Origin: Cycloclasticus sp. symbiont of Poecilosclerida sp. M | GTDB lineage: Bacteria > Pseudomonadota > Gammaproteobacteria > Methylococcales > Cycloclasticaceae | Length of the DNA: 45,570 nucleotides | Assembly: GCA_002101225.1 (NCBI GenBank) | Contig: LWTN01000235.1 | Location: forward strand, 1-45,570 | Reading direction: 5' to 3' | Part shown: positions 2,389-24,925 of the stretch, in pieces | Numbering within the stretch: the first letter of the stretch is position 1 | Layout: each line of letters opens with the position of its first letter | Translations under genes and position numbers: made by a program | The notes under the pieces: model-generated | Seen by the model: only the letters and a program-made list of their open reading frames with translations | What the model was told of the DNA's origin: nothing | Database searches by the model: none

Positions 2389-3285
2389 CTAGTCTTTTTG
2401 GTGGTCTAGCGCCTCGCAAATTTTATCGCTACTCTCCTTTAGTTGTTCTTCTAAATCGGCGTGTTGTAGTGCAAATTCAATATTGGCGCGAAGAAAGCCC
2501 GCTTTGGATCCGCAGTCGTGACGTACACCGTTAAATTTGAAGGCATTGACGGGTTGCTCAGATAACAACGCGCTAATTGCGTCGGTTAGTTGAATTTCGC
2601 CGCCCGCGTCTTTGCCCGTTGTTTCCAATAACTGAAGAATTCGAGGCGTTAAAATATAGCGTCCAACAACGGCTAAATTAGAGGGCGCATCAGCAGGCTT
2701 CGGTTTTTCAACGATGGCCTGAATAGCAGTGCATTTAGACGCTGCATCATCGACCTCAACAATACCGTATTGATCCGTCTTATCGTGATCCACTTCTTCA
2801 ACGGCGATAACACTGTTACCCCTTTCTTCAAAGGCTTCAACCATTTGTGCGAGACAGGGCTGGCTATTACCATCAATAAGGTCGTCGGCAAGCAACACGG
2901 CAAAGGGCTCGTTACCCACGACCTTTTTTGCGCAATGTACCGCGTGGCCTAAACCCAAAGCTTCACTTTGTCTAATATAAATACAATCAACGTGCGCGGG
3001 AATAATTTCTCGTATGGTACGTAGGCGTTCTTCTTTTTGCTTTAATTCCAGTTCGTGTTCAAGCTCGTACGCTTTATCAAAGTGATTAGCGATAGCTTGT
3101 TTATTACGACCTGTAATGAAAATCAAGGTATCAATCCCTGCAGCAACAGCTTCTTCAACCGCGTACTGAATTAACGGCTTATCGACTACGGGCAGCATCT
3201 CTTTTGGGATAGACTTGGTCGCGGGTAAAAATCGTGTGCCAAGGCCGCCAACGGGGAAAACTGCTTTTGTTATTTTTTTTGACAT
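2389..3285 (-). CDS. galU: UTP--glucose-1-phosphate uridylyltransferase
   Basis: The 298-residue product matches GalU over its whole length (usual size about 290-302). It makes UDP-glucose from UTP and glucose 1-phosphate in the cytosol, for exopolysaccharide, LPS and trehalose-type pathways. The nucleotide-binding signature is at residues 13-32 (GGLGTRFLPATKSIPKEMLP), and VEKPKP and DAGGEIQLTD, both typical of GalU, follow. The gene is read leftward, towards tviB, so the two nucleotide-sugar genes converge. Its upstream region (3286-3446) is shared with the divergent rnr. Start ATG at 3285. Confidence 0.95.
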   Translation of the reverse strand: MSKKITKAVFPVGGLGTRFLPATKSIPKEMLPVVDKPLIQYAVEEAVAAGIDTLIFITGRNKQAIANHFDKAYELEHELELKQKEERLRTIREIIPAHVDCIYIRQSEALGLGHAVHCAKKVVGNEPFAVLLADDLIDGNSQPCLAQMVEAFEERGNSVIAVEEVDHDKTDQYGIVEVDDAASKCTAIQAIVEKPKPADAPSNLAVVGRYILTPRILQLLETTGKDAGGEIQLTDAISALLSEQPVNAFKFNGVRHDCGSKAGFLRANIEFALQHADLEEQLKESSDKICEALDHQKD

Positions 3286-3446
3286 ATTGTTCGTTAAAAC
3301 ACTGAGTACGCTTTAGTAAAACGAGGGTTAATTGTGTGCAGCAGTTTAGCACTATCATTAGATTTATTAACGAGTATTAGAGCAAATATTGGGCTTTTTA
3401 ATGCTGCAAACGGTATGATGTTGCAAAATCTAAGCTACGGCTAAGT

Positions 3447-5678
3447 GTGTCCAAGAATAAAAAACCAAAAATAACAAAAAATGACGATGCGGGTGAAACG
3501 CAGGATGGCGTGAGTCTAGAAAAATCAACCGTTCTCGACTTTTTAGTCGAACAAAAGACCCCACAAAATTGGCCTAATTTGGTCGATGGACTCGGTTTAA
3601 GGTCAAAAAAATCACATAAAAAGCTAACCCGCATCCTTAAAGGTTTTGAAAGTGCAGGGCAGATAATCGTTAATCGTAAGGGTCAATATTGTGTTACTGA
3701 TCAAGCGGGCTTAATTACAGGCACGATTATCGGCCACGCAAATGGCTTTGGTTTCTTAAAACGTGATGGCGGTGGCGATGACCTCTTCTTACCACCCAAA
3801 CAGATGCGGCTTGCGATGGATGGTGATCGTGTGGTTGCGAGCGAAGGTGGGGTTAATCGGCAAGGGAAGGTCGAAGGCCGAATTGTAGAAATTTTAGAAA
3901 GAAAGGTGTGCACGGTGGTGGGTCGTTTTTTTGAAAAAATGGGCAGCTTTCACGTAGAGCCTGAAAATAAGCGCATTAACCACAATGTTTTTATTCCTGC
4001 CGAGCTGACGCAAGGCGCGAAACAAGGGCAGATTGTCTTAGCGGAAATCACCCATTATCCCAATATACGCATGCAAACCATTGGCAAAGTGGTTGAAATA
4101 ATGGGCGACCATATGGCGCCGGGTATGGAAATTGACGTTGCCATTCGAGCCCACGATTTACCGCATCAATGGTCGCAAGTTGTGTTGAGCGAAGCGCAGG
4201 GTTTTTCAGTAGATGTTCTTGCGCAAGATGTTGAAGGCCGTAAAGACTTACGTAAGTTGCCATTGGTCACCATTGATGGCGCAGATGCTAAAGACTTTGA
4301 CGATGCGGTTTATTGCAAACCAGATAGTAAAGGTTGGACTTTGTATGTAGCGATTGCAGACGTAGCGCACTATGTACGCCCTAGTTCAGCGCTTGACACA
4401 GAAGCAATCGAACGGGGTACCTCGGTATATTTCCCCGGGCAAGTATTGCCGATGTTGCCAGAAGTTTTATCCAATGGTCTGTGCAGCTTAAAGCCAAAAG
4501 TGGATCGTTTGTGTATGGTTTGTGAAGTACATATTGACCCGCAAGGCCAGCTGTCCAATGCGCAGTTTTATGAAGCAGTTATGCATTCACACGCACGACT
4601 TTTATATGACGAGGTCGGCGGTATTTTGGATGGCTCAGACCAGCAAGCGAAACAAAAACACGCGGCGCTTATCCCACATTTAAAAAATTTACACGACCTT
4701 TATGCGGTGCTTAAAAAAGCGAGTGTCAATCGCGGGGCATTAGATTTTGATACTGTTGAAACCCAGTTTGAATTCGACGAAGAAAGAAAAATTAAGGCTA
4801 TAACGCCGGTTGTTCGTCATGACGCACATAAGTTAATAGAAGTGTGCATGATCGCTGTAAACTCAGCGGCGGCGCGCTTTTTAATTGAACGTAAAATACC
4901 TTTGCTATTACGCGTTCACGAAGGCCCCGGCATTGAAAAGCTACTGAAACTCAGAGAATTTCTATCTGAACTAGGGCTGAGTTTGGAGGGTGGGGAAGAG
5001 CCCAAGCCAGCCCATTACAAAGCATTAATGGAGAAAGTTAAAGATAGGCCTGATAGTCATCTTATTCAAATGGCCGTATTGCGTTCTATGTCGCAAGCGA
5101 TATACAGCCCGGAAGAGGAAGGCCACTTTGGCTTAGCGATTGATCGCTATGCACATTTCACATCGCCCATACGGCGTTACCCCGATTTGCTCGTACACCG
5201 TGGTTTAAAACACGCGATTAAAGGTTCAAGCGCTAAAAAGTTTAGTTATTCAGCGGGTGATATGGCCGAGCTGGGCGAGCATTGCTCATACAATGAAAGG
5301 CGTGCAGATGAAGCAACACGTGATGTAACGAGCTGGTTGAAGTGCGAGTTTATGCTGGATAAAGTTGGCCAAGAATTTAAAGGTGTCGTTTCCTCAGTCA
5401 CTTCCTTTGGGCTGTTTGTTGAATTAGAAGGTACGTATGTAGAAGGCTTGGTTCATGTGACCGCCTTAGGCGATGACTATTACCAATACGACGCAGCCCA
5501 ACACCGCTTATTGGGCGAGCGTAGCAGACGGTCATTTCGAATGGGGGATGAACTTAGCGTAGAACTCATCAGTGTAAACCTAGATGAAAAGAAAATAGAC
5601 CTCGCTTTAACCGGTGCTTCAACACAAAAGCCGTCGCGTAAGAAGCGAACAAAGCACAGCAAGTCCAAAAGAAGATAA
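3447..5678 (+). CDS. rnr: Ribonuclease R
   Basis: The 743-residue 3'-5' exoribonuclease has the RNase II/R order: N-terminal winged helix (about 25-85), cold-shock domains, the catalytic RNB domain and a C-terminal S1 domain (about 640-725), ending in a Lys/Arg-rich tail typical of RNase R. The metal-binding aspartates are in IDGADAKDFDDAV (about residues 276-288). It degrades structured RNA, including rRNA fragments. The start is a GTG at 3447 with only a weak ribosome-binding site; no better in-frame start precedes the helix domain. Its stop codon TAA overlaps the ATG of rlmB by one base, the usual rnr-rlmB pair. Confidence 0.96.
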   Translation: MSKNKKPKITKNDDAGETQDGVSLEKSTVLDFLVEQKTPQNWPNLVDGLGLRSKKSHKKLTRILKGFESAGQIIVNRKGQYCVTDQAGLITGTIIGHANGFGFLKRDGGGDDLFLPPKQMRLAMDGDRVVASEGGVNRQGKVEGRIVEILERKVCTVVGRFFEKMGSFHVEPENKRINHNVFIPAELTQGAKQGQIVLAEITHYPNIRMQTIGKVVEIMGDHMAPGMEIDVAIRAHDLPHQWSQVVLSEAQGFSVDVLAQDVEGRKDLRKLPLVTIDGADAKDFDDAVYCKPDSKGWTLYVAIADVAHYVRPSSALDTEAIERGTSVYFPGQVLPMLPEVLSNGLCSLKPKVDRLCMVCEVHIDPQGQLSNAQFYEAVMHSHARLLYDEVGGILDGSDQQAKQKHAALIPHLKNLHDLYAVLKKASVNRGALDFDTVETQFEFDEERKIKAITPVVRHDAHKLIEVCMIAVNSAAARFLIERKIPLLLRVHEGPGIEKLLKLREFLSELGLSLEGGEEPKPAHYKALMEKVKDRPDSHLIQMAVLRSMSQAIYSPEEEGHFGLAIDRYAHFTSPIRRYPDLLVHRGLKHAIKGSSAKKFSYSAGDMAELGEHCSYNERRADEATRDVTSWLKCEFMLDKVGQEFKGVVSSVTSFGLFVELEGTYVEGLVHVTALGDDYYQYDAAQHRLLGERSRRSFRMGDELSVELISVNLDEKKIDLALTGASTQKPSRKKRTKHSKSKRR

Positions 5679-6433
5679 TGGCAGAGATTCAAACCATCTT
5701 TGGTCTTCATGCGGTGCAGGCGCTGCTTGCTAACAGAAGCGAACGCATTTTAACCACGAATGTGGATGCACAGCGCGACGATGATAAGTTAAGAAAACTA
5801 ATCAACGCGTTGCAACAAGCAGGAGTTGCGGTTCAGCGGGTGGATAAAAAAACCTTAGAAAAACTGGCGGATGGCGGCAATCATCAAGGGCTTGTTGTTA
5901 CGGTGCGCTTGCCAGAGGAGCAAACCGAAGATGCGCTAAAAAAAGCCGTTAAAGGCTACAAAGGCGACGCGTTTTTTCTCGTGTTAGACCAAGTTACAGA
6001 TCCGCATAACTTAGGCGCGTGTTTAAGAACGGCGCTCGCAGCGGGTGTGCAGGGCGTTATCGTACCCAAGGACAATGCTTGTCGGTTGACGGCAACGGTT
6101 TGTAAAGTGGCCAGTGGCGCAGCCGAAAGTATGCCAATCTACCGCGTAACCAACCTGGTTAGAACGCTTAAGTGGTTAAAAGCCGAAGGTATCTGGTTAA
6201 CGGGCGCAGCAGGGGGGGCGTCGCTAGATTTGTATACGTCTGAACTTAAAGGTTCTGTGGCGATCGTAATGGGGGCAGAAGGCAAAGGCTTAAGGCAGTT
6301 GACCCAGAAACAATGCGATCAGTTGGTTAAAATACCCATGCAGAAAAAGGTAGAAAGTTTGAATGTGTCGGTCGCAGCGGGCATTATTATGTACGAAGTC
6401 GTAAGACAACAAAATTCAAATAAACAAAGTTAA
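5678..6433 (+). CDS. rlmB: 23S rRNA (guanosine-2'-O-)-methyltransferase RlmB
   Basis: This 251-residue SPOUT-class methyltransferase uses S-adenosylmethionine to 2'-O-methylate a guanosine in 23S rRNA (G2251 in E. coli). It has an N-terminal substrate-binding domain starting IFGLHAVQALL, then LDQVTDPHNLGACLRTA, and the knot motifs MGAEGKGLRQL and SLNVSVAAG (227-235). Its length is normal for the family. The ATG overlaps the rnr stop codon, so the two are translationally coupled. The YcxB-like gene follows after 15 bases. Confidence 0.96.
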   Translation: MAEIQTIFGLHAVQALLANRSERILTTNVDAQRDDDKLRKLINALQQAGVAVQRVDKKTLEKLADGGNHQGLVVTVRLPEEQTEDALKKAVKGYKGDAFFLVLDQVTDPHNLGACLRTALAAGVQGVIVPKDNACRLTATVCKVASGAAESMPIYRVTNLVRTLKWLKAEGIWLTGAAGGASLDLYTSELKGSVAIVMGAEGKGLRQLTQKQCDQLVKIPMQKKVESLNVSVAAGIIMYEVVRQQNSNKQS

Positions 6434-6448
6434 AAAAGAGAGATTTAA

Positions 6449-6976
6449 ATGTCAGCCATAACGTATTCACTAAAAAAAATAGACTTATTGGAGTTTAACG
6501 AGTATCACGCAAAAATGACCGGGGTGTATGGCAAAAGCATCACACGCCATCAAATTTTATGGCCGTTTATTCTGGCTGCACTTGCGTTGTATATCGTTCT
6601 TGTGCAAAAAGACGAGCAACTAGGCGTTCTGTTTTTAATGCTCGCTTTTATTTGGTCGCTTATTATTCCTAGTATTTTAAAAAAACGATTTCATGACCAC
6701 GTTTCTGGGCTTTACAGTCATAAGCAAATTGCTGATGCAACAGGTAAACGGACGTTGTCTCTATCAACAAAGGGGTTAATCGAGCATAAAGACGAGGGCG
6801 AAGACAATGTCATGGCGTGGGGCGATATCAGCAAGTTCGAACAAACAAAATTTCATATCTATTTATATGTCTCAGACGATGCAGCCGTCATTATCCCGAA
6901 AGAAGCGATAATCGAAGGCGATTTAGATGCGTTTATAGAACAAACGATTGAGCAGATTAAAAGCAGTGCTGGTTGA
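6449..6976 (+). CDS. YcxB-like membrane protein
   Basis: The 175-residue protein has two predicted membrane helices, roughly residues 36-52 and 59-76, flanked by a soluble N-terminus and a C-terminal beta-rich domain. The C-terminal half (LSLSTKGLIEHKDEGEDNVMAWGDISKF... IIPKEAI) has the layout of the YcxB-like C-terminal domain, a PH-like fold found in many uncharacterised bacterial membrane proteins. Function unknown. It follows rlmB with a 15-base gap containing an AAGAGAG ribosome-binding site, so it is probably co-transcribed with rnr-rlmB. Confidence 0.7.
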   Translation: MSAITYSLKKIDLLEFNEYHAKMTGVYGKSITRHQILWPFILAALALYIVLVQKDEQLGVLFLMLAFIWSLIIPSILKKRFHDHVSGLYSHKQIADATGKRTLSLSTKGLIEHKDEGEDNVMAWGDISKFEQTKFHIYLYVSDDAAVIIPKEAIIEGDLDAFIEQTIEQIKSSAG

Positions 6977-7008
6977 GGTTTTCGTATTGTAATCAAGCAA
7001 TGTAAGTA

Positions 7009-7037
7009 TTGCTTTGAAACAGCAAGCCAAGTAAAAT
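7009..7037 (+). promoter_or_regulatory. Sigma-70-type promoter of the rpsF operon
   Basis: TTGCTT at 7009-7014 and TAAAAT at 7032-7037 are separated by exactly 17 bases, the optimal spacing. This places transcription start near 7044 and leaves a leader of about 70 bases before rpsF. It is the strongest promoter-like sequence I found in the window, and position and operon content support it. Confidence 0.6.
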
Positions 7038-7041
7038 GCCC

Positions 7042-7091
7042 CGCTAGTCGCGCGTAGCGTGACCCCTTGCTCCACCTTAATAGAAGGGGGG
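7042..7091 (+). promoter_or_regulatory. Structured leader of rpsF, candidate S6:S18 autoregulatory element
   Basis: Two hairpins can be drawn. One has GTCGCG (7047-7052) against CGTGAC (7058-7063), or alternatively CGCTA (7042-7046) against TAGCG (7055-7059). The other has CCCCTT (7063-7068) against AAGGGG (7084-7089), with a 15-base loop containing CCACC. The S6:S18 protein pair is known to bind its own rpsF mRNA leader in many bacteria, and a structured leader of this size just before AAGGAG (7102-7107) fits. I cannot match the published consensus in detail, so the specific assignment is an inference from position. Confidence 0.35.
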
Positions 7092-7112
7092 CTTAATTCA
7101 TAAGGAGTAGAC

Positions 7113-7532
7113 ATGAGACATTACGAAGTCGTTTTTTTGGTGCATCCAGACCAAAGCGCGCAAGTACCTGCCATGGTAGAACGTTATTGTGCAATAGTTG
7201 AAGAAGGTAAAGGCAAAGTTCACCGCGTTGAAGACTGGGGTAGAAGACAGTTAGCCTATTCAATTAACAAAATCCATAAAGCACATTACACATTGATGAA
7301 TATTGAGTGTGGGCAAGATGTTCTTGACGAACTTGATAAAGCATTCCGTTTTAATGATGCGGTGCTTAGAAATCTTATTATGCGTCGTGAAGAAGCCGAT
7401 ACCGGCGTTTCTCCATTGATTAAAGAAAAAGAAACTGCAAAGCCAGCTGCTGAAACTAAAGAAGCTCCTAAAGTTGAAGTGAAAGCGGAAAAAGAAGCCG
7501 AGCCTGTTGCTGAAAAAGCAGCGGCCGAATAG
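7113..7532 (+). CDS. rpsF: 30S ribosomal protein S6
   Basis: The 139-residue product begins [15 protein letters not shown], the classic S6 start, and contains [16 protein letters not shown]. The conserved fold ends near residue 98. The last 40 residues are a charged Lys/Glu/Ala/Pro-rich tail ([13 protein letters not shown] and similar), longer than the poly-glutamate tail of E. coli S6. S6 pairs with S18 on the platform of the small subunit. AAGGAG at 7102-7107 is a strong ribosome-binding site. rpsR follows after 30 bases. Confidence 0.97.
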
Positions 7533-7562
7533 CAGTTACACACAAATTATTAAGGAATAGAT

Positions 7563-7799
7563 ATGGCATTTGATAAAGGTTTTAGACGCCCACGTTACTG
7601 CAAATTTACCGCAGAAAACGTTAAAGAAATTGATTACAAAGATTTAGATACATTGAGAGAATACATTTCTGATACGGGAAAGATTATTCCAGGCCGTGTG
7701 ACAGGTGTTAAAGCGAAGTATCAACGTCAACTGACAGCTGCGGTTAAAAGAGCAAGATTTCTTGCGTTAATTCCGTATTGTGACGCGCACGAACGTTAG
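7563..7799 (+). CDS. rpsR: 30S ribosomal protein S18
   Basis: The 78-residue basic protein has the S18 core: [17 protein letters not shown], then [19 protein letters not shown] and [21 protein letters not shown]. Its length is normal (E. coli 75). It binds S6 and 16S rRNA. It lies between rpsF and a DUF2232-like gene, in the usual operon order, with an AAGGAAT ribosome-binding site. Confidence 0.97.
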
Positions 7800-7848
7800 A
7801 GGAAAAGGTGGTTTGCTGCGCACGGTTGTGGGCAGTTAGCTAAAACGT

Positions 7849-8748
7849 ATGCACGCTTTCGCGTCGTTTATTATGCAAGGTGGCCGTCAAGCCACAGCCG
7901 CAATTGTGGCGCTTGCGACGCTGTCGTTTTTAATACCACCGTTAGTTGTTGTAAGTGTTGCCGCTATTTGTTTGGTAACACTAAGAAAAGGGCCTACTGA
8001 GGCTTCGCAAGTTTTAATAGGTTCGACCGTTGGTTTGGCCTTGATGGGTTATTTGATTGTAGGCACACCACTGGTTGCAATCAGTTATTTGTTGGTGATG
8101 TGGTTGCCGGCGTATATAGCTGCCTTGGTGTTGAGAGAAACAACGAGCTTTAATACGGCTTTAGAGTGTTTAGTACTATTAGGTGTTATAGCGGTTGTGG
8201 GTGTTTATGTTTCTGTAGATGACCCGGCTCAGCAATGGTTGGTTAATATACAAGCGGTTGCTGAAAACCTGGGTCAAGAACAAGAGTTACCCATTAGCAA
8301 GGTTGAGTTACAAGAGAGTATTCAGTTTTGGTCGAAGTATATGACCGGGCTGGTATTAGCGGGCTCGATAGTAAGTGTGGTGGTTGGTTTAATGCTTGGT
8401 CGCTGGTGGCAAGGGTTGTTGTATAACCCAGGCGGATTTAGCGATGAGTTTAGCCAGCTTAGAATGCCACAACGCGATGCCGTGATTTTTGGCATATTGA
8501 TGTTAGCTGCTTTTTTTCTGGAAGGAGAATTGGCAGAGATTGTTTGGAATATAGATATACAAGCCTTGCTGTTGTTTATAATGGTGGGCGTATCGGTTAT
8601 TCGAACAATCATTGTAAAAAGCGGAAAGAGCCCAGTTATGTTATTGGTTTTTTATATCGCTTTATTTTTTGTACCGCATTTGATGTTTCCTGTGGTGTTA
8701 GTGGGCTTGTCAGATGTTTGGGTGGATTGGCGTCGACGGTTTATTTAA
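7849..8748 (+). CDS. DUF2232-like (YybS-type) polytopic membrane protein
   Basis: The 299-residue protein is almost entirely hydrophobic, with about seven or eight predicted membrane spans from residue 12 to the C-terminus and no recognisable catalytic motif. A membrane protein of this kind sits between rpsR and rplI in many Pseudomonas-like gammaproteobacteria, and family DUF2232 (YybS) is the likely home. Its role is unknown. No ribosome-binding site is evident before the ATG at 7849; an alternative ATG at 7873 also lacks one. It is bracketed by rpsR and rplI on the same strand and is probably translated from the ribosomal mRNA at a low level. Confidence 0.7.
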   Translation: MHAFASFIMQGGRQATAAIVALATLSFLIPPLVVVSVAAICLVTLRKGPTEASQVLIGSTVGLALMGYLIVGTPLVAISYLLVMWLPAYIAALVLRETTSFNTALECLVLLGVIAVVGVYVSVDDPAQQWLVNIQAVAENLGQEQELPISKVELQESIQFWSKYMTGLVLAGSIVSVVVGLMLGRWWQGLLYNPGGFSDEFSQLRMPQRDAVIFGILMLAAFFLEGELAEIVWNIDIQALLLFIMVGVSVIRTIIVKSGKSPVMLLVFYIALFFVPHLMFPVVLVGLSDVWVDWRRRFI

Positions 8749-21771: not shown

Positions 21772-22905
21772 ATGGAAAGTGGATTAATACAAGTTTGGCA
21801 ATCAACGGGAATCGCTAATTTCGAGTGGGGTAACGTGTTAATGATAGGCATCGGCTTATTGTTAATTTACCTCGCGATTTCAAAAGAGTTTGAACCCTTA
21901 TTACTTTTACCTATTGGATTTGGCGGTATTTTGGCTAATATCCCTATCGCGGGTATCAGTGGGCCCGACGGTTTGTTAGGTATTTTGTACCATATGGGTG
22001 TTGATACGGGCTTATTCCCACTCTTGATTTTTATGGGTGTCGGCGCCTTGACTGATTTTGGCGCGTTAATTGCGATGCCCAGTTTATTGGTGCTAGGCGC
22101 TGCGGCTCAGTTTGGTATTTTCGCGACTTTGCTCGGTGCGATTGCAATGAATTTCCTGCCGGGTATTGAGTTTAGCTTGGCGGATGCTTCAGCGATTGCG
22201 ATTATCGGCGGTGCCGATGGGCCGACCGCCATTTTCCTTGCTTCCAAGTTGGCGCCAGATCTATTGGGTGCGATAGCTGTTGCTGCGTATTCATACATGG
22301 CGCTTGTACCGATTATTCAACCGCCAATTATGCGTGCCTTGACGACTGAAACAGAGCGTAAAGTAGAAATGAAACACCTACGACACGTCAGCAAGCGCGA
22401 GCGCATCGTCTTCCCAATATTGATACTGACGGTGGTAATTTTATTCTTACCCGCCTCGGCCCCACTGATTGGTATGTTGGCCTTTGGTAATTTATTGCGT
22501 GAAAGTGGTGTGGTGGATCGTTTAAGTTCGACGGCTCAAAATGAGCTGATTAATATCGTCACCATCTTTTTAGGCTTATCAATTGGCTCAAAACTATCTG
22601 CAGATAAATTCTTAACGACCGAAACCTTAGGTATTTTGATATTGGGTATGGTCGCTTTTTCTATTGGTACTGCTGCTGGGGTATTAATGGGAAAAATTAT
22701 GTATCGTATGACAGGTGGCAAAGTGAACCCATTGATTGGTGCAGCGGGTGTATCAGCAGTCCCTATGGCAGCGCGTGTTGTCAACAAGGTGGGTCATGAA
22801 GCAAATCCACATAACTTCCTCTTGATGCATGCAATGGGGCCAAACGTAGCCGGTGTTATCGGGTCAGCTGTTGCAGCAGGGGTATTATTGGCTGTCGTCG
22901 GCTAA
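21772..22905 (+). CDS. oadB: Oxaloacetate decarboxylase beta subunit, sodium pump
   Basis: The 377-residue polytopic membrane protein decarboxylates carboxybiotin and exports sodium ions. The conserved [11 protein letters not shown] segment carries the aspartate used in sodium translocation, and the C-terminal membrane half includes [19 protein letters not shown] and the [19 protein letters not shown] end. Length is within the 370-430 range for this subunit. It lies nine bases after oadA. The 5' remnant of dusA begins about 40 bases downstream. Confidence 0.95.
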
Positions 22906-22944: not shown

Positions 22945-22991
22945 ATGAAAACCCCGAATTACGCGCTATCTGTTGCCCCATGATGGATTGG
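22945..22991 (+). pseudogene. dusA: Displaced 5' end of dusA, frameshifted
   Basis: From the ATG at 22945 the frame reads MKTPNYALSVAP and then hits TGA. The DNA continues ccccatgatggattgg, the same bases that encode APMMDWT at the start of the intact dusA at 23962-23977. One C is missing here (four instead of five), which causes the stop. The region is therefore the original dusA start, cut off from the gene by the inserted segment 22992-23961. The intact gene now begins with a different N-terminus ([13 protein letters not shown]). Homology is lost after the 16-bp identity. Confidence 0.75.
22976..22991 (+). repeat. 16-bp direct repeat, left copy (candidate attL)
   Basis: ccccatgatggattgg is identical to 23962-23977. 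The similarity extends upstream with mismatches (gctatct is shared, with one gap). It lies at the 5' end of dusA, where a known family of integrases inserts genomic islands and prophages. Confidence 0.7.
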
Positions 22992-23056
22992 GCGGCACAT
23001 TCTAGAATTCTTTATAAATCAACTAGATAGGCATAGCAAAAAATAACTCACCGTAT

Positions 23057-23067
23057 ATATGCGGACT
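23057..23067 (+). repeat. 11-bp direct repeat, copy 1, flanking the toxin-antitoxin pair
   Basis: atatgcggact occurs here and again at 23850-23860, on either side of hicB-hicA and inside the larger dusA-sequence repeat. It may mark an inner insertion boundary or be chance. Confidence 0.45.
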
Positions 23068-23077
23068 TCTGAATTGC

Positions 23078-23095
23078 TTATGCAGTTTTGCATAA
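23078..23095. promoter_or_regulatory. Inverted repeat upstream of hicB, candidate operator
   Basis: TTATGCA (23078-23084) and TGCATAA (23089-23095) form a perfect 7-bp inverted repeat with a 4-base centre, just upstream of the -35 element at 23100. Toxin-antitoxin operons are commonly autoregulated through such palindromes. Confidence 0.5.
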
Positions 23096-23099
23096 TGTT

Positions 23100-23129
23100 T
23101 TGCTTTTTAAGAGCAAGGAACGGTATAAT
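23100..23129 (+). promoter_or_regulatory. Promoter of hicB-hicA
   Basis: TTGCTT at 23100-23105 and a perfect TATAAT at 23124-23129 with an 18-base spacer. Transcription would start near 23136; the GAGGAG ribosome-binding site at 23135-23140 lies at that point, so the leader is very short, and the real start may be a few bases upstream. Confidence 0.55.
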
Positions 23130-23147
23130 TAACTGAGGAGTATGGCA

Positions 23148-23495
23148 ATGAAAAAGATAAATCCAGCAGAACTTTTTTTAAGGTGTTATGCACAAAAAGA
23201 AGCCAACGATGATTGGTTTGCGATTTGTATAGACCTTAATGTTAGTGCAACCGGGTCAACTTTGAATGATGTGATGGAGGATGTGCACAATCAAATTGCC
23301 GACTATGTGCACGAAGCGTTTACTGATGATAAAGAGCATATACAACGATTGCTTACTAGGAAAGCTCCATTATATTTTCTTGCACAATATCATTGGATAA
23401 GCTTAGTGTTGGGTTTTCGCAACCTTTGTAGCCTCGCAAAAAACCAGCTTAATAAAAAAATCTTTAACGAGCAACTTCCGCTTATCCCTGCTTAG
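23148..23495 (+). CDS. HicB-like antitoxin, without a visible DNA-binding domain
   Basis: The 115-residue product has the HicB-like partial RNase H fold in its first 65 residues. A strand starting FLRCYAQKE is followed by DDWFAICIDLNVSATGSTLNDVMEDV, the typical 'W.A.C.DL...G.T..EA' layout of HicB, and then a helix NQIADYV. The remaining 50 residues are hydrophobic-basic and show no ribbon-helix-helix or helix-turn-helix that I recognise. The role would be to bind and block the following HicA. GGAG at 23137-23140 favours the ATG at 23148 over the in-frame ATG at 23142. Gene order is antitoxin first, with a one-base overlap to hicA. Confidence 0.7.
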   Translation: MKKINPAELFLRCYAQKEANDDWFAICIDLNVSATGSTLNDVMEDVHNQIADYVHEAFTDDKEHIQRLLTRKAPLYFLAQYHWISLVLGFRNLCSLAKNQLNKKIFNEQLPLIPA

Positions 23496-23734
23496 TGTTT
23501 TCTGGTTATAGGCCGCTTAAATGTACAGACGTTGAAAAGATTCTAAAAAAGCTTGGCTTTAAAGAGGTAAAGAAAACAGGTGGTTCACACCGGAAATTCA
23601 AGAAACACCATTGCGGCGTGTTGTTTAAGACTACTCTTGCGTGCCATAAAGGGGAAGTTCAAGCTAAGAACATTCGGAGCATGATCTCTCAGATGGGCGT
23701 AAGCAAGAGCGTTTTTTATTCCGCAATAAAATAG
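23495..23734 (+). CDS. hicA: HicA-family toxin (mRNA interferase-like)
   Basis: The 79-residue basic protein shows the HicA fold signature: an N-terminal helix (VEKILKKLGF), a strand with KKTGGSHRKF containing the catalytic histidine (His32), HHCGVLFKTTLACHKGEV, and a terminal helix (AKNIRSMISQMG). HicA toxins bind and cleave mRNA. The start is a GTG at 23495 overlapping the antitoxin stop by one base, with no ribosome-binding site of its own, so its translation depends on the upstream gene. No ATG in this frame is available before the conserved region. Confidence 0.8.
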   Translation: MFSGYRPLKCTDVEKILKKLGFKEVKKTGGSHRKFKKHHCGVLFKTTLACHKGEVQAKNIRSMISQMGVSKSVFYSAIK

Positions 23735-23849
23735 CTTAAAATATTTCCCTTTTTATCCGTTAGTTCGTTCTTGCCGTTGTTTTACTTTTGTAATGCCAAA
23801 TAGCCGCCAATTTTCCAACTTCAAATCCACATTTTATTTTTATACCTAA

Positions 23850-23860
23850 ATATGCGGACT
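23850..23860 (+). repeat. 11-bp direct repeat, copy 2
   Basis: atatgcggact, identical to 23057-23067, located about 115 bases after the hicA stop. Confidence 0.45.
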
Positions 23861-23941
23861 GATATAGTCAAAACTAACGTGATAATGCAAGAAATAACGA
23901 GAAAGAAACATAAAAAATCCAATAAAATCAAGGCAAAGCCC

Positions 23942-24925
23942 ATGTATAAGCTATCTATAGCCCCCATGATGGATTGGACAGATAGGCACTGCCGGTATTT
24001 TCATCGTCTTTTATCTCCTAACGCTTTGTTGTATACCGAAATGGTCACGACGGGTGCTTTGTTACACGGTGAGTCTGAACGATTTCTACGTCACGATATA
24101 TTTGAATACCCTTTAGCTTTGCAACTAGGCGGTAGTGAACCCAATGCCTTAGCGCAGTGCGCAAAGTTGGCTGAACAGGCTGGGTTTCAGGAAGTGAACA
24201 TTAATGTCGGCTGCCCTAGCGATCGAGTGCAGAGTGGTCGTTTTGGTGCTTGTTTAATGGCCGAGCCAGGCTTGGTTGCGCAGTGTGTAGAAAAGATGCA
24301 AGACGCCGTTGATATCCCCGTTACGGTTAAAACGCGGATTGGTATAGATGATTTCGAATCGGCTGATTTCCTACTGAAATTTATTGAGAAAGTCTCAAAT
24401 GCAGGGTGTCGAGTTTTTATAATTCACGCGAGGAAAGCGATTTTAAAAGGGCTCTCACCCAAGGAAAACAGAACGGTTCCACCTTTGAATTACGGCAGAG
24501 CTTACCTCATTAAACGTGAGTTCCCGGAGCTTACGGTGATTGTTAATGGTGGAATTAAAACGGTTGCGGATATTGAGCAACATTGGGCTTTCGCCGACGG
24601 CGTGATGATTGGGCGCGAAGCCTATCAAAATCCTTATTTTTTGGCTGAATTAGAGCAGCAACTATTTCATCAAGCGCTAAAAAAACGTGAGGCGTATTTA
24701 GCTGACTATCTACCGTATGTCGAACAGCAGCTTGCAAGTGGAGTGGCGTTGCCAGCGATGACGCGGCATATTCTAGGTTTATTTTCTGCTCAAATGGGCG
24801 GGAGACATTGGCGCCGTCATATCAGTGAAAATGCACATAAAGAGAGTGCAGGGATTGAGGTAATTGAAGCCGCGTTAGCCGCAACGAAAGCCGTAGCAGG
24901 GCAGGCGACGCAGGCCTTGAATTAG
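23942..24925 (+). CDS. dusA: tRNA-dihydrouridine(20/20a) synthase DusA
   Basis: The 327-residue flavin enzyme reduces uridines 20/20a in the tRNA D-loop. Conserved segments are [17 protein letters not shown] near the N-terminus, [21 protein letters not shown], the catalytic cysteine in [19 protein letters not shown] (Cys91), [23 protein letters not shown] and [13 protein letters not shown]. This pattern is DusA rather than DusB or DusC. I chose the ATG at 23942, preceded by AAGG, because the 30 extra residues available from 23852 are low-complexity Lys-rich and absent from the family. The start was apparently rebuilt after an insertion, since the original N-terminus (MKTPNYALSVAP) remains at 22945. 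Confidence 0.95.
23962..23977 (+). repeat. 16-bp direct repeat, right copy (candidate attR) inside dusA
   Basis: ccccatgatggattgg, identical to 22976-22991. It encodes the start of the conserved APMMDW segment of the functional dusA. Confidence 0.7.

Follow-up and report, generated by a model that had tools for sequence, protein, structure and literature searches.

A probable relic of a dusA-integrated island, reduced to 986 bp and a hicA gene pair, in a Cycloclasticus symbiont

The DNA analysed here, referred to as the window, is a stretch of 45,570 nucleotides that makes up one whole contig (LWTN01000235.1) of the Cycloclasticus sp. symbiont of Poecilosclerida sp. M (GCA_002101225.1). The genome is a draft of 2.3 Mb in 244 contigs and is 99.99% complete. 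We compared it with 17 other genomes of the same genus, which together with the symbiont's own genome gives a set of 18. Between oadB and an intact dusA gene, the window carries two small, intact and overlapping genes, orfB and hicA, on an insert with a G+C content of 36-40%, compared with ~45% in the flanks (Table 1).

Table 1. Features of the oadB-dusA region, in window positions
Feature	Position	Strand	Basis or remark
oadB	21772..22905	+	left chromosomal neighbour; synteny conserved
abandoned native dusA start; its target core (22976-22991) is the left junction (attL)	22945..22991	+	exact 16-mer; frame; position of the native starts in relatives
left arm-type repeat ATATGCGGACT	23057..23067	+	65 bp inside left core
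orfB (117 aa), predicted HicB-like antitoxin partner	23142..23495	+	homologues precede hicA elsewhere
hicA toxin gene (79 aa), overlaps orfB stop	23495..23734	+	PF07927, E 1.3e-9, 38.4 bits, cut-off 27
promoter-like sites, candidate dusA drivers	23839..23886	+	weak consensus matches, not above shuffles
right arm-type repeat ATATGCGGACT	23850..23860	+	starts 112 bp before right core
putative island-supplied dusA 5' end	23885..23961	+	start may alternatively be ATG 23942
right core (attR) in functional dusA	23962..23977	+	exact 16-mer
dusA, intact tRNA-dihydrouridine synthase A	23942..24925	+	PF01207, 294 bits

An initial annotation of this DNA had described the two small genes as a toxin-antitoxin pair. 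This holds for HicA, which is recognized by its family model (PF07927), while its partner orfB passes neither a Pfam nor a HicB family model. Structure models of the orfB product were of low confidence (pLDDT 55-57) and gave no usable fold match. The pairing with hicA, however, is conserved: in most of nine unrelated genomes and 6 of 8 viral contigs, the gene immediately preceding hicA is a homologue of orfB, and for this reason an antitoxin role of orfB is likely. As in type II HicBA systems, the gene for a HicA domain protein overlaps a small partner gene; the pair differs from these systems in that the partner passes no HicB model and its gene comes first. In genome G024 (L145:1251-2329), orfB-hicA follows a truncated integrase of 62 aa with an Arm-DNA-bind_3 domain. 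None of the 17 other Cycloclasticus genomes contains hicA.

The start of dusA had been reported to be present twice, and we could retrace this in full. The 16-mer CCCCATGATGGATTGG occurs exactly at 22976-22991 and at 23962-23977, 986 bp apart from start to start, and the whole window holds no third match even if up to two mismatches are allowed. In dinucleotide shuffles, the expected number of matches was 0.02 on average, and two were never seen. The frame of the left copy, MKTPNYALSVAP, begins with the ATG at 22945, 39 bp past the oadB stop codon, and reads MKTPNYALSVA(P). It is broken by the loss of one base, since there are four instead of five C residues before ATGATGG. Its earlier reading as an authentic DusA N-terminus was borne out, as was its relationship to dusA: the left copy is homologous to native dusA starts (LSVAP). 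The 5' end of the right, functional dusA is unlike this native start and resembles the island-supplied N-termini of intact dusA islands and of the Cycloclasticus genome G011 (see below). The duplicated block on the left stops at GATTGG, which is also where identity to the target stops in the left junctions of the Thalassotalea and Shewanella islands used for comparison.

The order oadA-oadB followed by dusA-folE-hemH is kept in the 17 other genomes of the genus wherever the region is assembled. Across 13 same-genus genomes, the oadB found upstream of dusA shows 88-94% amino acid identity; the window dusA is 65-72% identical to its relatives in the genus. Three genomes display the empty site: in G010, the dusA ATG follows the oadB stop after 17 bp, and G016 and G013 have a gap below ~100 bp and no second dusA start. 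They belong to other species, with dusA genes ~70% identical to that of the window, and no strain-level relative was found among the compared genomes. Insertion at the dusA site is well supported. The initial proposal that the two starts are attL and attR of a dusA-integrated element is supported too, and it withstood both conditions that had been named to refute it: relatives do have empty sites, and the left copy is related to native dusA starts. In some relatives (G005, G007, G008 and G012), the oadB-dusA gap contains a GGDEF-type gene; between oadB and dusA, this gene lies on the minus strand in L039, L042, L043 and L048, and it is truncated in G011. In a draft of 244 contigs, the arrangement in the window might also come from an assembly artefact that fused two loci. 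We consider this extremely improbable, as a single contig covers the region and the gene order to either side of it is conserved, and a search for further copies of the cassette, which the initial annotation had recommended, showed that it is single-copy in the genome, as is dusA.

Inside the two cores, we noticed a second direct repeat that had been missed before (TATATATGCGGACT / TAAATATGCGGACT, at 23054-23067 and 23847-23860). For comparison, we located both junctions of a 38-kb island from Thalassotalea and a 42-kb island from Shewanella subflava, and further included a 6.6-kb element in L100, the attP regions of phages UFOVP1367 and AS1, and G011. Each of these six known or likely dusA-integrase elements has 10-12-mers shared between the two sides of its core, positioned 34-70 bp to the left and 127-173 bp to the right, with a motif that is specific to each element (ATGCGTACT in phage UFOVP1367). 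In the five elements other than G011, the distance on the right is 135-173 bp. Taken alone, the match of the arm repeats in the window is modest (shuffle p 0.035). Judged from the sequences, the junctions of the window seem to follow the plan of intact dusA islands and phages. The layout of arm-type sites is an observation of the present analysis and lies outside the published island definition; the text of PMC8409611 contains no mention of 'arm'. An intact parental island with the ATGCGGACT arm repeat was not found. Among viral contigs, a search for the arm repeat beside a dusA core gave zero matches in one orientation and six in the other, approximately the number expected by chance, all of them without dusA or a dusA-type integrase.

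These junctions bear on the idea that an unrelated insertion, by illegitimate recombination or through a different integrase, placed the toxin-antitoxin pair upstream of dusA and that the repeated start is a short local duplication. Such pairs also travel with other elements, the orfB-hicA genes behind the truncated Arm-DNA-bind_3 integrase of G024 being one case, and an integron integrase is present in the symbiont's own genome. We regard this explanation as very unlikely. The duplicated block ends at GATTGG, exactly as two intact dusA islands do at their left junctions, and arm-type repeats stand at the expected distances. Moreover, the two dusA 5' ends differ, one being native and the other island-like, and are not copies of each other.

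We next turn to the integration machinery. None of the ORFs in the 986-bp interval encodes an integrase, in agreement with the initial annotation. It had also suggested a search for dusA-type integrases elsewhere, which yielded none in the symbiont's own genome and no intact one across the 18 genomes of the genus. The PF00589 matches in the own genome are XerC/XerD-like or integron-type, apart from one broken integrase. RdfN/PrtN is likewise absent from the 18 genomes; the same search detects PrtN inside intact islands, which served as positive control. The broken integrase is a relic of a tyrosine integrase in two frames on another contig (G000:C185, L057:6558-7411). We rejected it as the missing enzyme, with a best E value of 9e-5 over 48 aa to dusA integrases and a location away from the insert. 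The integron integrase (contig C218, L056:7884-8909; TIGR02249, 445 bits) suggests that the bacterium may carry a chromosomal integron. An integron origin of the insert was considered and discarded on the basis of its junctions, which are dusA cores.

The 986-bp interval is very probably the remnant of an island that was put into the 5' end of dusA by a dusA-specific tyrosine integrase and later reduced by deletion. Insertion of the island by such an enzyme would have split the native gene, with its old start left behind at the left end (attL) and a new 5' end from the island joined to it at the right end (attR). Because this end was supplied by the island, dusA would have stayed usable. The integrase, the directionality factor and further cargo would then have been lost by an internal deletion, and what survives are the two junctions, each with its arm-type repeat, and the orfB-hicA pair. 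From the form of the locus, we infer both the action of the integrase at this site and the small size through deletion. The toxin-antitoxin pair may have favoured retention of the remnant, which should stay fixed in place as long as no matching Int and RdfN are provided in trans.

Islands of this type have been described before. Farrugia et al. (2015, PMC4482086) surveyed 94 islands of 4,758 to 184,808 bp, every one of them with a dusA-associated integrase, and a directionality factor of the RdfN/PrtN type was found in 64% of dusA islands. The window shares with them the 5' dusA site, imperfect direct repeats at both junctions, a dusA start supplied by the island and, as seen in the intact examples examined here, arm-type repeats inside both cores. 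It differs in lacking an integrase and in its size, 986 bp compared with a minimum of 4,758 bp in that survey. Vibrio elements of the IMEVchUSA3 type and the laboratory mini-IE (PMC8409611) likewise have a dusA attL and attR and a new dusA N-terminus, but the Vibrio elements carry int and rdfN, and the window has neither. A further category is the CIME, or cis-mobilizable element, which has lost its integration and transfer genes and kept attL and attR (PMC5704250); CIMEs derive from decayed integrative elements and can be mobilized in cis following accretion. The loss of these genes with both junctions kept also describes the locus in the window, which differs in being located at dusA, in its length of only ~1 kb and in having a toxin-antitoxin pair as sole cargo. 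The best reading is a non-autonomous, CIME-type relic of a dusA island that is probably immobile here.

The initial annotation had left the choice between a stabilized relic and a minimal mobile cassette. In the latter case, the attL-TA-attR unit would be a parasite or satellite that moves between genomes by using Int and RdfN from visiting dusA islands, with the toxin holding its place between visits. Both junctions look structurally complete, including the arm repeats. RdfN is a PrtN homologue, and Int plus RdfN suffice to excise the Vibrio dusA element, also in the form of a mini-element; in the laboratory mini-IE, which had int, rdfN was given in trans (PMC8409611). Tandem transfers of a CIME with an ICE have been observed as well (PMC5704250). 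Against such a cassette stand its single copy in the genome, the absence of hicA from 17 of 17 other genomes of the genus and the base missing from the left core. Moreover, viral contigs yielded no second cassette carrying the same arm repeat, and neither the genome nor the genus yielded a helper integrase or RdfN. We found no tandem of the unit with another element. Mobilization of the window unit in trans is unsupported, and we regard the cassette as improbable; the relic is preferred because the insert has no second instance in the genus, a search for a cognate integrase found none, and the partly decayed locus of G011 offers a parallel.

In G011 (L046:10738-14214), the dusA start is duplicated 2.7 kb apart, with a left copy that reads MNRQFSIAPMMD and then stops, and a functional right copy. 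Its remaining cargo is toxin-antitoxin-like and comprises a Panacea-domain antitoxin with a partner ORF and a pair of HTH and DUF4258 genes. An integrase of the dusA type survives there as its first ~102 residues; this piece lies beside dusA, placed and oriented as in intact islands, and has ~45% identity to the dusA integrase of a phage. The sister of G011, G007 (support 96/98 on oadAB), has a native dusA start that is not split. G011 holds a second, partly decayed dusA island of the genus, and it likely shows the decay path taken by the relic in the window.

A survey of 170 dusA loci, with on average 8.7 kb of upstream sequence examined and up to two substitutions allowed in the second core, revealed second cores only in L046, L100, L119 and L128. 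A version with 80 loci gave zero matches on the reverse strand, used as control, and an exact-pattern survey of 369 genomes found no other short core pair. In the gammaproteobacterial MAG L119, an identical core lies 5.2 kb upstream of dusA (2822-8027). The genes in between encode RHH and a PIN fragment, Fic, VapBC beside dusA and an IS3-type transposase; no dusA integrase was detected there and no repeat is common to the two ends. In L128 (1584-8030), a near-copy of the dusA core lies 6.4 kb upstream of dusA, again with neither a dusA integrase nor a shared arm repeat. With the window, G011 and L119, integrase-poor dusA relics with toxin-antitoxin genes recur, three cases being too few for a rate.

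The window illustrates the extent to which a dusA island may be reduced without losing either of its recombination junctions. With G011 and L119 added, the last cargo to persist during the decay of dusA islands would seem to include toxin-antitoxin genes. This pattern offers a test of whether such pairs guard integrated elements against deletion. The recurring arm-type repeats provide a means to recognize integrase-less dusA relics that have been overlooked by integrase-based surveys. Long dusA N-termini that resemble the island-supplied ones were also seen in G004, G001 and G017 (L047, L049 and L041), there without a left dusA copy; from their sequences, they may be scars of older islands.
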